Positions 5,333 to 36,501 of a DNA stretch of 64,000 bases are shown piece by piece. Each line of letters starts with the position of its first letter. Within the stretch, counting starts at the first letter, position 1. A model generated the notes under the pieces. That model worked only from the letters and a program-made list of their open reading frames with translations. It did not search any database and was not told where the DNA came from. A program made the translations under genes and the position numbers. Source of the stretch: Microbacterium sp. M28 (lineage in GTDB: Bacteria; Actinomycetota; Actinomycetes; Actinomycetales; Microbacteriaceae); the NCBI RefSeq assembly GCF_025836995.1, contig NZ_CP107546.1:434001-498000 (forward strand), in the 5' to 3' direction.

Positions 5333-6880
5333 TCAGCGGACGTTGATGGCGACGGTGTGCCACCCCGTCGCCCCGTCGGGTGCCGGCGGTGCGGAAGCCT
5401 CGGTCTGCGTCTCCCCGTCGGCACCGACGGCGCGGCACCGGATGCGGTGGTCGCCGGGTTCGGCGGACCACGGCATCCGCCACTGCACCCAGGTGTCGTC
5501 CGAGATGGCCGGAGCCAGCTCGGCCCGCCGCCAGTCGCCGTCGTCGATCTGCACTTCGACGGCGGCGACGCCGGTGTGCGGCTGCCACGCGACACCGGCG
5601 ATCACGCTGTCGCCGGCGGCGACGTCGCGCCCGGCCCGTGGCACGTCGATGCGGGACTGCAGCTTGATCGGACCGCGCTCGGACCACCCGCGGTCGGTCC
5701 AGTACGCCCGGTCCCGATCGAAGCGCGTGACTTCGAGATCCGTGACCCACTTGGTGGCGGAGACGTAGCCGTAGAGTCCAGGTACGACCATGCGCACGGG
5801 GAAGCCGTGCGCGAGTGGCAGCGGCTCTCCGTTCATGCCGATCGCGAGCAGCGCATCGCGGTCGTCCGTGAGCGCCTCCAGGGGAGTGCTCGCGGTGAAG
5901 CCGTCGACCGACGTCGACAGCACCATGTCGGCATCAGCGGTGGGACGCGCGCGCGCGAGCAGCTCGCGGATCGGATGCCCGAGCCACACGGCGTTGCCGA
6001 TCAGGTCTCCGCCGACCTCGTTCGATACGCACGACAACGTCACCGTCGTCTCCGTCATCGGCAGAGCCAGCAGCTCGTCCCACGTGAGTTCGATCTCCTC
6101 CGCCACCATCCCGTGGATGCGCAGTCGCCAGGATGCCGGATCGACCGTCGGCACGACGATGGCGGTGTCGATCCGGTAGAAATCGGCGTTCGGCGTGATC
6201 AGCGGGGTGATGCCGGGGACATCGAGCACCGCCCCGGCTGGTGGAGCCGGCGCCGGGGCCGAGGGCTTCGGCAGGCGCAGCGCGTCGCGCACGGTGGTGA
6301 CCGCCGAGGTGCCCGCGCGCGCGACGGTTCCGGCGATCGTGAGCGCGATGCCGAGCGCGGCCGTGCCGCCGGCCCAGGCGAGGAAGCGGCGCCGCGACGG
6401 CAGCTCCGCGTGCGCTGCGGCATCCGCTTCGGGGCGACCGACCAGGACGCCGACGAGCAGGTGCAGGGCGAGGGCGCCGGTCGCTCCGGCCAGCAGGGAG
6501 GGCAGCCACGACGGCATCCCGGCATCCGACGATCGCGTGACGGCGATCGCGGCGACGATGGCGCCGATCGCGACGAACGTGCTCACACCGGACCGTCGCC
6601 ATCTCGCCTCGCACAGGCCGAGTGCCGCGGCGGCCACGACCAGGACGAGGCCGATCCCGATCAGCAGAGCGACCTTGTCGGCGGTGCCGAACCACGCGAT
6701 CGCGGTGTCCTTCGCCCACGTCGGAGCCGCGTCGATCAGCGCCCCGCCGACCACGGTGAACGGACCAGAGGTCGCGGCGAACAGTGCGGCGGCGAGCTCG
6801 CCGACCCCGACGCCGACGATCGCCGCCGCGATACCGGCGATCGCGGCCATCATCGCGCGGGGTCGGGAAGAGGCGGTCAC
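5333..6880 (-). CDS. Membrane-anchored molybdopterin-dependent oxidoreductase (sulfite oxidase family)
   Basis: This 515-residue protein has an N-terminal membrane region of about four hydrophobic segments, then a further segment after the RRRFLAWAGG stretch (around residues 165-190). The oxidoreductase molybdopterin-binding domain follows from about residue 215. The Mo-ligating Cys is in TLSCVSNEVGG. The C-terminal beta-sandwich is the Mo-co dimerisation domain (GVAWQPHTGVAAVEVQIDDG). It starts at GTG 6880. Catalysis would take place on the outer face of the membrane. The substrate is unknown; relatives act on sulfite or remain uncharacterised. It is unrelated to the sugar genes around it. 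Confidence 0.9.
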   Translation of the reverse strand: MTASSRPRAMMAAIAGIAAAIVGVGVGELAAALFAATSGPFTVVGGALIDAAPTWAKDTAIAWFGTADKVALLIGIGLVLVVAAAALGLCEARWRRSGVSTFVAIGAIVAAIAVTRSSDAGMPSWLPSLLAGATGALALHLLVGVLVGRPEADAAAHAELPSRRRFLAWAGGTAALGIALTIAGTVARAGTSAVTTVRDALRLPKPSAPAPAPPAGAVLDVPGITPLITPNADFYRIDTAIVVPTVDPASWRLRIHGMVAEEIELTWDELLALPMTETTVTLSCVSNEVGGDLIGNAVWLGHPIRELLARARPTADADMVLSTSVDGFTASTPLEALTDDRDALLAIGMNGEPLPLAHGFPVRMVVPGLYGYVSATKWVTDLEVTRFDRDRAYWTDRGWSERGPIKLQSRIDVPRAGRDVAAGDSVIAGVAWQPHTGVAAVEVQIDDGDWRRAELAPAISDDTWVQWRMPWSAEPGDHRIRCRAVGADGETQTEASAPPAPDGATGWHTVAINVR

Positions 6881-6957
6881 AGGCTCAGGCTACGAGCATC
6901 GAGACGCGCACGGGGCACCGGTCACGGAATCGTAAGGACTCGTCCCGCGTGAGGCGG

Positions 6958-7026
6958 GCGAGAAACCACTTCGTACTCGAGAAACCACGTCGGCAGGTGT
7001 TTCTCGCGCCCCGCATGGTTTCTCGC
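6958..7026. repeat. Four-copy direct/inverted repeat element (GAGAAACCA word)
   Basis: The word GCGAGAAACCAC occurs at 6958-6969 and, as CGAGAAACCAC, at 6978-6988. It then recurs inverted as GTGTTTCTCGC at 6997-7007 and as TGGTTTCTCGC at 7016-7026. The copies are spaced about 20 bases apart, so the strand can fold into nested hairpins. The element fills the gap between the MFS gene's stop and the oxidoreductase gene's start, both on the minus strand. It has no U-tract, so it is not a standard terminator. The function is unknown. Confidence 0.7.
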
Positions 7027-7033
7027 CGGCCGG

Positions 7034-8428
7034 TCACGCGGAGCGGCGCTCCGTCCGGATCGGCGTCGTCGCGGCGACCTCGTCGCTGAACTCCGTCGGG
7101 TCGGGCCCGACCACGGTCAGCGGCCGGGTCTCATCGAGCGTGAGCAGGAAGCGGGCGTCCTCTCGGCGGTGCAGGCGTCCGGAGGCCAGCATCCATCCGA
7201 CGCCGATCATCATCGCGAGGATGCCGGCGAAACCGCCGACCGCGATCGCGGCTCGCGGTCCGAAGACGTCCGTGACCCACCCGGCGATGGGAGCGCCCAC
7301 GGGCGTCGACCCCATGATCACCGCCATGTAGAGCGCGAGCACCCGGCCGCGCAGCGCCGGATCGGTCGTCGTCTGGACGTAGCCGTTCGCGGTCGTCATC
7401 ATCGTCACGATCATGAACCCGACGAACATGAGCGACGCGGCGTACGTCCAGTAGGTCGGCATCGCGGCCGAGATGAGCGAGACGACCCCGAAGCCGCCGG
7501 CGGCGATCACGAACACACGGATGCGCGCGCGCTCGCGCCTCGCCGCGAGCAGCGCGCCGGTGAGCGATCCGATCGCCAGCACAGAGCTGAGCACACCGTA
7601 CCCGTCAGCCTCCCGACCGAACTCGAGCGCCATGGTCGAGGCGAAGATGGGGAAGTTCATGCCGAACGCACCGATGAGGAACACCATCACGAAGGTCACG
7701 GCGAGGTCGCTCCGCCGCCACGCGTAGCGGAAGCCCTCGGCCAGACCCGAGCCCTTGCGGCTCTTCGCCCGAGGCAGGAGCTCGCTCGAACGCATCAGCA
7801 GCAGTGCGATGAGCATGGCGAGGAAGGTGACCGCATTCGCGACGAACACCCAGCCGGTGCCGACGGCGACGATCAGGAGGCCGCCGACCGCAGGCCCCAG
7901 GAGCCGTGCCATGTTGAACGACGCCGAGTTGAGCGCGACCGCGTTGGACGCGTCGTCGATCGACACCATGTCCGACACGAACGCCTGGCGCGCCGGTGCA
8001 TCGAAGGCGTTGGTGATGCCGAAGGCCAACGCGAACAGGAACATGAGCGGCAGCGTCATGACCCCGGTCAGCAGCAGCGCCGCGACGCCGAGCGCGAGCA
8101 CCATGAGGGTCGACTGGGTCACGAGCAGGAGCTTGCGGCGGTCGAAGCGGTCGGCCGCCCATCCGGTCAGGCTGACGAGCACGAGCGGAGGGCCGAACTG
8201 CAGCGCCATGGTCACGCCCATGGCCGTCGCGTCGTTGTCGGTCAGCTCGGTCAGCACGACCCAGTCCTGTGCTGTGGCCTGCATCCAGCCGCCGACGTTC
8301 GACACCAGCGCGCCGATGAACCAGACCCGGTAGTTGAAGGTCGAGAACGACCGGAACATCGCAGGGGCCCCGCGCCCGGAGGCTCGGCGCGACGCGCCGG
8401 CGGCGCGTCGCGAGGACGAACGGGTCAT
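7034..8428 (-). CDS. MFS exporter, DHA3-like
   Basis: This 464-residue major facilitator protein has about twelve membrane segments and a basic, low-complexity N-terminus (RSSSRRAAGASRRASGR). The loop GWAADRFDRRKLLLVTQ between segments 2 and 3 is the family A-loop. Family resemblance is to drug or siderophore exporters (MFS_3/DHA3). Its ATG overlaps the stop of the upstream MarR gene (ATGA), so the two are one operon and the exporter is probably under MarR control. The exported substrate cannot be told from the sequence. Confidence 0.9.
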   Translation of the reverse strand: MTRSSSRRAAGASRRASGRGAPAMFRSFSTFNYRVWFIGALVSNVGGWMQATAQDWVVLTELTDNDATAMGVTMALQFGPPLVLVSLTGWAADRFDRRKLLLVTQSTLMVLALGVAALLLTGVMTLPLMFLFALAFGITNAFDAPARQAFVSDMVSIDDASNAVALNSASFNMARLLGPAVGGLLIVAVGTGWVFVANAVTFLAMLIALLLMRSSELLPRAKSRKGSGLAEGFRYAWRRSDLAVTFVMVFLIGAFGMNFPIFASTMALEFGREADGYGVLSSVLAIGSLTGALLAARRERARIRVFVIAAGGFGVVSLISAAMPTYWTYAASLMFVGFMIVTMMTTANGYVQTTTDPALRGRVLALYMAVIMGSTPVGAPIAGWVTDVFGPRAAIAVGGFAGILAMMIGVGWMLASGRLHRREDARFLLTLDETRPLTVVGPDPTEFSDEVAATTPIRTERRSA

Positions 8429-33208: not shown

Positions 33209-34134
33209 TGACGACGGCTTCGGATCTCACCGCCCGCCTCGGGATGCCGGACGGCGCACGGGCGATCATCCTCAACGCCGACGACTTCGGCATGTGCCAC
33301 GCGGCCAACACCGCGATCATGGACCTGCTCGATTCGGGTCGCCTCGACTCGACGACGATCATGATGCCGTGCGCGTGGGCGCCGGAGGCGCTCGCCTTCG
33401 CGACGCGGCGCACGGATCTCGACATCGGGGTGCATCTCGTCCTCACGAGCGAATGGAGCGACTATCGGTGGCGGCCGCTGACCGGCAGCGCGAGCTCGCT
33501 CGTCGATGCGTCGGGTCACTTCCCGGCGGAGGCGCGTGCGGTCGAAGAGCACGCGGATGCCGCAGACGTCGCAGCCGAGCTCGCCGCGCAGCTGCAGGCC
33601 GCGTCGGATGCCGGCGTGGACGTGACCCACCTCGACAACCACATGGGTTCGGTCTACGGGCTGGAGACCGGCCGGGACTTCCTCGGCGAGGTGTTCGCGC
33701 TGGCCGCGCGGCACGGGCTCCCGTTCCGACTGCCGCGGGTGGCCGACGGGCCGGAGCTGGACCCCGCGCTGCAGCCCCTGCTGGACCGCGCCGCCGCCGC
33801 GGCGGATGCCCTCGGCATCCTGCTGCCGGACCGCACGTGGACGCATCCCTTCGCTCTGGCGCAGGAGGGGACGCCGCACGAGGAGACCTACGAGCGGGTG
33901 CGCGACGGGTTCGTCGCACTGCTGCGGGCGGTCCCCGCCGGCGTCACGGAGATCTTCCTGCATCCGATGGTCGACGACCAGGAACTGCGCTCGGTCGTCG
34001 ACTTCAGCGCGGCCAAGCGCGGATACGAGCGCAGACTGCTCACTGACCCGATCATCGCCGCTACGATCGCCGAGGAAGGCCTCGTGCGCGTCGGCTGGCG
34101 CGCGCTGAGGGACCTGCAACGCGGACCGCGCTGA
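33208..34134 (+). CDS. ChbG/HpnK (YdjC) family sugar deacetylase
   Basis: This 308-residue YdjC-fold protein has the metal-site motif NADDFGMC and further motifs DIGVHLVLT, HLDNHMGS and HPMV. The family removes acetyl groups from amino-sugar oligosaccharides such as diacetylchitobiose. The start is ATG 33208, overlapping the ROK stop by one base, or the adjacent GTG 33205. The gap to the GPH transporter is 16 bases, so it acts on a glycoside taken up by that carrier (inference). Confidence 0.85.
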   Translation: MTTASDLTARLGMPDGARAIILNADDFGMCHAANTAIMDLLDSGRLDSTTIMMPCAWAPEALAFATRRTDLDIGVHLVLTSEWSDYRWRPLTGSASSLVDASGHFPAEARAVEEHADAADVAAELAAQLQAASDAGVDVTHLDNHMGSVYGLETGRDFLGEVFALAARHGLPFRLPRVADGPELDPALQPLLDRAAAAADALGILLPDRTWTHPFALAQEGTPHEETYERVRDGFVALLRAVPAGVTEIFLHPMVDDQELRSVVDFSAAKRGYERRLLTDPIIAATIAEEGLVRVGWRALRDLQRGPR

Positions 34135-35523: not shown

Positions 35524-36501
35524 TCAGCCGGCGTTGCGGCGGGCGTCCCAGCCGGTGCGCACCATCTCGTCGACCGTGTACCGCATCTTCCAGTCAAGGT
35601 CGCGGGCGGCGAGATCGCCGGCGGCGACGATCCGGTCGGGGTCTCCGGCGCGGCGCGGGCCGATCTCGGGAGTGAAGTCGATGCCGGTGACGCGGGCCAT
35701 GGCATCCATGATCTGCTTGACGCTCAGACCATCGCCCGAGCCGAGGTTGTACGCGGGCTCGATCGGATCGCCGGCGGCCAGCCGCTTCGCGGCCGCGACG
35801 TGTGCCGCGGCGATGTCACCGACGTGCACGTAGTCGCGGACGTTCGTGCCGTCCTCGGTCGCGTAGTCATCGCCGTTGATGCGCGGCGTCTCGCCCGCGA
35901 TCAGCTTCTCGAACACGATCGGGAACAGGTTGTGCGGGCTGACGTCGTACACGGTCGGGTCCGCGGAGCCCACGACGTTGAAGTAGCGCAGCGACGTGTG
36001 CCGCAGCGGGTGGTCGGATGCCGCGGTGGCGGTCGCCTGGTCGCGCAGCAGCCACTCCCCGATGAGCTTGGACTCACCGTACGGGCTGGCGGGCGCCTTC
36101 GCGGTGTCCTCGGTGACCAGCGCGACATCGGGGGTGCCGTAGACCGCGGCGGACGACGAGAACACGATGTTCGAGACGCCGGCCGCTGCCATCGCCTCGA
36201 GGACGATGCGCGTGCCCTCGACGTTCTGCGCGTACGTGTGCAGCGGACGCTGGACCGAGACACCGGCGTACTTGTAGCCCGCGACGTGGATGACGCCCTC
36301 GGCGTCGTGATCACGAAGGGCCGTCTCGACGAGCGCGCGATCGAGGATCGAACCCTCGACGAACGGAACCCCGTCAGGAGCGAAGGAGACCGCACCGCTG
36401 GAGAGGTCGTCGAGGATGACCGGTTCGAGCCCGGCATCCGCGAGGGCGCGGACGACGTGCGATCCGATGTACCCGGCGCCGCCGGTGACGATCCAACTCA
36501 T
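35524..36501 (-). CDS. galE: UDP-glucose 4-epimerase GalE
   Basis: This 325-residue short-chain-dehydrogenase-type epimerase has NAD site TGGAGYIGSH (6-15), active-site Ser cluster SSSAAVYG (115-122) and Tyr141-x3-Lys145 (PYGESK). It interconverts UDP-glucose and UDP-galactose in the Leloir pathway. It starts at ATG 36501 with AAGGAG upstream; the open frame to 36579 is not used. It lies after galT-galK in the same minus-strand operon. Confidence 0.94.
   Translation of the reverse strand: MSWIVTGGAGYIGSHVVRALADAGLEPVILDDLSSGAVSFAPDGVPFVEGSILDRALVETALRDHDAEGVIHVAGYKYAGVSVQRPLHTYAQNVEGTRIVLEAMAAAGVSNIVFSSSAAVYGTPDVALVTEDTAKAPASPYGESKLIGEWLLRDQATATAASDHPLRHTSLRYFNVVGSADPTVYDVSPHNLFPIVFEKLIAGETPRINGDDYATEDGTNVRDYVHVGDIAAAHVAAAKRLAAGDPIEPAYNLGSGDGLSVKQIMDAMARVTGIDFTPEIGPRRAGDPDRIVAAGDLAARDLDWKMRYTVDEMVRTGWDARRNAG

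Follow-up and report, generated by a model that had tools for sequence, protein, structure and literature searches.

What kind of element is the short, four-fold repeat that lies in an intergenic gap of Microbacterium sp. M28, and does it belong to something larger than itself? The window analysed here is a stretch of 64,000 nucleotides, positions 434001-498000 of a genome that consists of one contig of 3.37 Mb. The first-pass annotation of this window had described four copies of one word with a period of about 20 bases, the last two inverted. The copies are indeed present at 6958..7026, with a period of exactly 19. Each box is 12 bp long and the boxes are separated by 7-bp spacers: box 1 (6958..6969, + strand) matches GCGAGAAACCAC with 0 mismatches; box 2 (6977..6988, +) reads TCGAGAAACCAC, with 1 mismatch to GCGAGAAACCAC; box 3 (6996..7007, -) reads GCGAGAAACACC, with 2 mismatches; and box 4 (7015..7026, -) reads GCGAGAAACCAT, with 1 mismatch. 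Because two forward boxes are followed by two inverted ones at an exact 19-bp period, the whole forms a 69-bp nested palindrome, to which no strand is assigned and whose ends are GCGAGA...TCTCGC.

The element lies, as first described, between two minus-strand reading frames, both named by reading. Upstream of it in the reading direction is an MFS-type transporter gene (7034..8428, -), the stop of which is 7 bp away, and downstream is a molybdopterin-oxidoreductase-like gene (5333..6880, -), which starts about 80 bp past the element. Both neighbours are outside the repeat/nuclease system that is the subject of this report.

Single 12-mers with at most 2 mismatches are no commoner than chance, with 7 seen in the whole window and 6.1 expected. 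The four-copy arrangement has 12 of 72 sum-of-pairs mismatches; across 40 third-order Markov windows, scanned at all periods from 12 to 40, the best four-copy score was 22 mismatches, and the next best place in the real window scored 25. A chance origin of the four-box arrangement was rejected on these scores. RNA folding, which the first-pass annotation had put forward as a check, was better for each strand of the element than for all 200 shuffles (z -4.3 and -5.1). A search of 6700-7300 for intrinsic terminators (a GC stem, then a T run) called 0 terminator-like sites, and the T run is absent, so that a terminator identity was rejected, in keeping with the earlier judgement that this is not a standard terminator; with 0 Rfam matches within the window, membership of an Rfam family was rejected as well. 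Two more gaps of the same plan had been reported within the window, and these did not materialise: four-copy scans and a generic pattern of the plan both returned only 6958-7026.

One plan, many words

A genome-wide search for clusters of the word, likewise proposed at first pass, found 22 exact copies of CGAGAAACCA against 1 for the reversed control. Since 21 of the 22 sit inside elements of the 69-bp plan, the exception being the copy at 301167, the word is not one that is common at random positions. The generic plan, GAGA-N15-GAGA-N19-TCTC-N15-TCTC with at most 2 mismatches, matched 22 places in this genome and gave 0 control matches; nine places carry the window word and thirteen a second word, GAGACTTGG with variants. 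The word search added a tenth window-word element at about 1037669, which brings the genome's total to 23 (10 + 13). Elements of the second family lie at 33627, 55629, 103591, 416606, 504682, 774524, 794681, 1461655, 2712715, 2921704, 2933302, 3289607 and 3290874; their words are GAGACTTGG, GAGACGTAC and variants, and their spacer is conserved and of GCGGGGT type.

According to a reading-frame caller, 21 of the 23 elements lie between genes, two of these overlapping a gene end by 9-28 bp. Of the other two, the element at 35697 is ahead of its gene's true start, as judged by eye, and that at 1725666-1725730 runs in frame through the linker region within a gene of biotin-carboxylase type. The earlier statement that no coding role is possible therefore stands for the window element and fails for this sibling.

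Across the genus, a GAGAAACCAC pair with at most 1 mismatch was found in 39 of 198 genomes, and the generic plan in 139 of the 198, at 0-76 places each, with 0 reversed-pattern matches in all of them. The words differ among genomes and the plan is constant; GAGAATTGCC, GAGACTGCAC, GAGACGGGGT, GAGACAGAGC and GAGAACCCAT are words of other genomes on the same plan, and some arrays that flank the gene described below have other cores than GAGA on the same 19-bp plan, for example GATAAACGC or CATAAACGC (counted by eye). These genome and genus scans strongly support the first-pass surmise of a class of elements that share a plan and differ in their words. In a family-level sample, 19 of 398 genomes matched the generic plan and 3 genomes gave a control match. 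The matches comprise 8 of 9 genomes of the own genus, 4 of 5 of genus g58 (at most 15 places) and 7 single matches in seven other genera, which may be chance in view of the 3 control-match genomes. Over 174 distinct elements, palindromic pairing was 0.78-0.99 in the outer word (positions 1-9, where the GAGA positions were pre-selected by the search pattern) and 0.48-0.59 at spacer positions 10-15, against 0.26 expected from composition.

Longer arrays, with at least three boxes per arm at the 19-bp period, were seen in G160 (C1:3026260-3026326, L073) and G176 (C1:346522-346569, L074), and whole elements appear to be tandemly duplicated in G160 (C1:436284/436443, L072; 159 bp apart) and G025 (C11:380385/380621; 236 bp apart).

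Searches of titles and abstract starts in the open-licence PMC literature found no description of these elements or of their pairing with a nuclease, and a literal search for the word returned, among the matches listed, unrelated papers only (the hits being assumed primers). The window element genuinely belongs to a class, and this class is absent from the literature found by these searches.

The gene between the elements

In three genomes, a gene for a protein of about 330 residues lies between two elements spaced about 1.2 kb apart. M28 has one intact copy of this nuclease gene, at 699249-700208 (-), outside the window; a window-word element precedes its start by about 90 bp, and a degenerate array follows its stop. 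A second match in the same genome, at 1294182-1294649 (L269), is distant and partial (E 6.8e-9), overlaps a 322-aa open frame and has no element within its 3.5-kb locus.

The flanking recurs throughout the genus. Among 48 loci that carry the gene (30 from protein searches and 18 chosen for diversity, at most 3 mismatches; 2 further fetched regions without the gene stand outside the 48), 39 have an element upstream of the gene and 36 have one downstream; 35 have elements on both flanks and 40 on at least one. Ten loci had no match to the pattern or a doubtful one; inspected by eye, nine of them carry palindromic arrays on each side of the gene, and the tenth, L137, is doubtful. For 80 named loci at no more than 2 mismatches, the element is upstream in 41, downstream in 33 and on both sides in 28, over a background of 5 places in the 366 kb of these loci away from the gene. 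A word-blind test, which takes the best ungapped match between flanks, gave a median of 19 for flanks of the same gene versus 10 for those of different genes; after 10 of the 80 loci were dropped for short flanks or N, 42 of 70 loci had an own flank pair that matched better than any of the 15 random non-self pairs, as did 18 of the 28 loci lacking the GAGA pattern.

Element number also follows the best protein match over the 198 genomes (Spearman 0.56): at least 3 elements were found in 44 of the 45 genomes with a best E of about 1e-85 or better, versus 72 of the 153 others. Eleven of the 198 genomes have at least 3 elements with no homologue at about E 1e-25 or better, so that either element families outlive their gene or the gene was missed, and 28 have a homologue at about 1e-25 or better yet fewer than 3 GAGA-type elements. 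The second word of M28 may be an example of such a family: no cognate nuclease gene was found for it in this genome, and the family may consist of orphan repeats or have a divergent reader. Its close pair 3289607/3290874 encloses msrA-like and acetyltransferase-like genes, not the nuclease. In genome G098 the word beside the gene differs from the commonest word among that genome's listed places.

The protein family (E at most 1e-40) is present in 92 of 396 genomes of the order, and relatives in the scan of named genomes are nearly all from Microbacterium. Comparison of the flanks at eight loci outside the genus suggests that the pairing of gene and element extends beyond it: at L290 and L294 the two flanks clearly share a word, at L288 the comparison is suggestive, L289, L291 and L292 are confounded by a shared neighbourhood, and at L287 and L293 the flank match is not above that of non-self pairs. 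Many homologues show a stop inside the matched frame, and gene decay in the nuclease family may be common.

At E up to 0.1, three members of the family gave no match to Pfam or NCBIfam. Up to 52 of 62 members are matched by the AbiEi models of PADLOC, whereas Pfam AbiEi_1 matches 2 of 62 (best 2.4e-5) and DUF559 and MTES_1575 match 2 of 62 each (best E 0.19 and 0.13). The Pfam scan of the 62 members at E<=1 contained no Y1 transposase family, and no PDB chain was similar by sequence (best E 0.74). Abhydrolase_8 (16 of 62 members, best 0.0023, most matches weak) fits neither fold nor motifs and was taken for chance.

For a named relative (L175) that shares 65% identity with the M28 protein, the AlphaFold model reached a mean pLDDT of 95.4. 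VIA-align matched model residues 13-192 to the AbiEi antitoxin 6y8q (Z 9.0, rmsd 6.6, 163 aligned) and residues 197-303 to the catalytic domain of the homing endonuclease I-Bth0305I (Z 8.3, rmsd 3.0, 95 aligned) and to Vsr (Z 6.6), the Z values here being close to the tool's own caution level of 8. Foldseek found 6y8q at E 9e-4 and nothing else below 0.001, and nucleotidyltransferase structures (MenT1, ANT; Z 6-8) match the middle domain, which is what an AbiEi fold would lead one to expect. All of the 62 members share residues E196, E200, D231, E242, D244 and K248 without exception, so the nuclease centre looks intact. From this predicted fold, and from the AbiEi, homing-endonuclease and Vsr matches alone among the structure matches, we read the protein as the fusion of an AbiEi-like module with a Vsr-like PD-(D/E)XK nuclease.

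Mutual information between the flanking word and alignment columns, computed over 65 proteins, peaked at residues 96-110 in the middle domain; the winged helix, where a signal was expected, was not the top region. Among pairs drawn from 64 proteins at 50-60% whole-protein identity, the identity of residues 96-110 was 0.71 in same-word pairs (n=109) versus 0.43 in different-word pairs (n=465), these pairs being non-independent, a defect common to all segments, of which the others show no effect: the median difference over all 15-residue segments was 0.00 and that of the best non-overlapping segment 0.10. At 60-70% identity residues 96-110 led again, with 0.76 (83 pairs) versus 0.55 (35 pairs). 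Since these residues change with the word at constant overall identity, the protein probably reads the word, a point for which the support is good; this covariation is the strongest sign of word recognition and of a joint change of word and protein. GAGAAACC and GAGACGGG are taken as words read by two different homologues. Each palindrome family seems to be read by its own nuclease-type protein, the gene for which lies between two copies.

Homes and signs of movement

Among the 80 loci, the gene has a map-type neighbour in 27, a gcvP-type neighbour in 20 and a nusG-type neighbour in 12 (named by reading). Near the map gene, the unit occupies two neighbouring gaps and occurs in both orientations (13, 6 and 8 of 27 loci). 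So few and such conserved homes look like vertical inheritance, which argues against mobility, as does the gene's absence from the plasmid and phage collections searched; this behaviour resembles the single-copy habit of RAYT genes (PMC3116915). The M28 protein matched 0 of 72,556 plasmid records at E 1e-10 and 0 of 50,697 phage records at E 1e-5, and a phage or plasmid origin was rejected because the protein occurs in no such record searched. The 30 candidate stretches of viral contigs held no relatives of the protein, the generic element pattern matched 1 stretch of viral contig, and the window element was not found in plasmids.

Pairwise locus alignment showed no case of an insertion gap in the 120 most similar of 530 pairs. 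A projection of flanks for empty sites gave candidates, of which the four inspected all proved to be diverged elements or unrelated indels, and no target-site duplication, such as goes with a MITE, was recognisable by eye at the elements of M28. For the in-gene element at 1725666, comparison with 29 homologous loci from other genomes showed a hypervariable linker, so that its exact junction is unreadable. Past the end of the orthologous transporter gene, 29 of 29 loci from other genomes lack the window element (the gene end being poorly located in L154 and L168); against this, G113 and G036 have same-word elements at distances of about 55 and 230 bp from the end of that gene, which could reflect shared ancestry. 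None of these comparisons yielded a clean empty site. The signs of past movement are indirect, namely the spread of copy number among species, the absence of the window element at those 29 loci and the two gaps and both orientations that the unit takes near the map gene, and both cleavage of the elements and their mobility are what we infer.

Elements with different words were also seen at the same sites. The gap before a tRNA-like gene holds a GAGACTTGG element in M28 (33627; L110:1501-1565) and a GAGAAACCAC element in G070 (L052), and the carboxylase linker holds elements of different words in two species, M28 (1725666; L116:1501-1565) and G098 (C1:1586943-1587007; L313). Such pairs point either to favoured sites or to a change of word in place.

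What the element may be

We interpret the element as a REP-like, non-autonomous repeat of a REPIN/RAYT-like system that pairs repeats with a nuclease, an enzyme unrelated to RAYTs, a reading to which we give a probability of roughly 0.7. The four inverted boxes would form a binding array for a dedicated AbiEi-Vsr-type nuclease, the AbiEi-like part of which would bind each box. Occupancy of all four boxes would bring nuclease parts together on the palindrome, and the nuclease would cut or nick there, at the element, at its ends or at empty sites. Cutting would let copies spread by repair, or be kept, at tolerated and mostly intergenic sites, analogous to the role that RAYTs are thought to have for REPINs. 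Binding, cleavage and mobilisation are all steps that we infer. We further envision, tentatively and with slightly more doubt than belief, a new selfish or domesticated system of Actinobacteria, in which a single-copy AbiEi-Vsr nuclease would read a genome-specific word through residues 96-110 and, through DNA cutting, would disperse or maintain four-box palindromes. No HUH, DDE, serine or tyrosine recombinase would take part in such a system, and the segment would serve as a protein-to-DNA recognition code.

REPIN/RAYT systems ('REPtrons') are described, in the parts of two papers used here, as short, mostly intergenic inverted palindromes in dispersed, genome-specific families, with the RAYT (TnpA-REP) as a dedicated single-copy gene that is often flanked by the repeats (PMC3733652, PMC3116915). 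The repeats of M28 likewise flank a single-copy gene and are dispersed mostly outside genes (21 of 23 intergenic). The enzyme, however, is of AbiEi-PD-(D/E)XK type, whereas a RAYT is an HUH (Y1) tyrosine transposase; the boxes begin with GAGA and not with GTAG; and there are four of them at 19 bp. Since enzyme type and tag were tested and both differ, the element is not a member of the REP/RAYT family, though it would work like a REP. The phyla named for GTAG repeats in the part of the source consulted are Proteobacteria, Cyanobacteria, Chloroflexi and PVC, with Actinobacteria not among them (PMC3733652). The CGTC-tagged REPs are dispersed palindromes too, with a tag that differs from that of the GAGA elements; the same part of that source gives no gene flanked by CGTC units and no known dedicated transposase for them (PMC3733652). 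Towards Vsr, I-Bth0305I and the DUF559/MTES_1575 nucleases, the predicted fold of residues 197-303 (Z 6.6 and 8.3 for the first two) and the invariant acidic residues suggest a likeness, and sequence similarity to the last two is marginal (2 of 62 members each, E 0.13-0.19); unlike Vsr, homing and DUF559 nucleases, the present protein is fused to an AbiEi-like part and flanked by its own repeated words. A homing endonuclease spreads through repair after cleaving the allele that lacks its insertion.

Proteins of the AbiEi family bind tandem inverted repeats, two in the case of AbiEi and four in that of Rv2827c, and both proteins repress their own promoters in this way, according to the part of the source consulted (PMC7319586). 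The predicted fold of residues 13-192 and the PADLOC matches (52 of 62) suggest a kinship with these type IV toxin-antitoxin proteins, and the element could accordingly be conceived as an operator and not a repeat: an AbiEi-like autoregulator would act at the boxes beside its gene, the dispersed elements would be its regulon, and the nuclease part would be inactive or have another role. The upstream position of the element in 39 of 48 loci and the covariation of word and protein would suit such an arrangement. We nevertheless consider it unlikely, because a second copy is found past the stop of the gene as often as not (36 of 48), several elements of M28 are placed between convergent gene stops or run in frame within a gene, copy number ranges from 0 to 76 among species, and the nuclease residues are invariant in 62 of 62 members. 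The present protein also differs from AbiEi and Rv2827c in its extra C-terminal nuclease-like domain, in the dispersal of its sites over the genome, and in its neighbours, which are housekeeping genes of map, dsbA, infA, ribosomal, gcvP and nusG type (by reading). In AbiE systems the antitoxin gene shares an operon with that of its cognate toxin, AbiEii (DUF1814).

Another enzyme, a RAYT or other transposase encoded elsewhere, might move the elements, with the AbiEi-Vsr gene as a frequent passenger or a host control factor. The 11 of 198 genomes that carry at least 3 elements and lack a close homologue would then be accounted for, but neither the covariation of residues 96-110 with the word nor the enclosure of the gene in many independent loci would be, and we regard this as improbable. 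More improbable still is a role at the RNA level, in which the nested palindrome would supply a hairpin acting as terminator, attenuator or mRNA stabiliser. Both strands do fold far beyond shuffles, the elements of M28 are mostly intergenic, and the spacers pair above the level set by composition (0.48-0.59 vs 0.26); yet a T run is missing, no terminator-like site was called, one element is set in frame within an open gene, and a terminator would not predict a fixed 19-bp plan or the covariation of word and protein. That the elements are self-marks, bound or cut by the nuclease for chromosome maintenance or for telling self from foreign and kept by selection instead of mobility, would fit the PADLOC AbiEi matches of 52 of 62 members, the intact nuclease residues and a gene found on no plasmid or phage, but is scarcely credible given a copy number that varies from 0 to 76 and the many genomes without elements.

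If our reading of a REP-like repeat with its own nuclease is true, the arrangement of repeat plus enzyme would have arisen a second time, from an unrelated nuclease. A protein family that no Pfam or NCBIfam model clearly covers would gain a role, and a class of intergenic palindromes that most sampled genomes of the genus carry would be explained. Because they represent many natural and parallel changes of specificity on one scaffold, the element words would, moreover, be a free data set for a protein-DNA recognition code.
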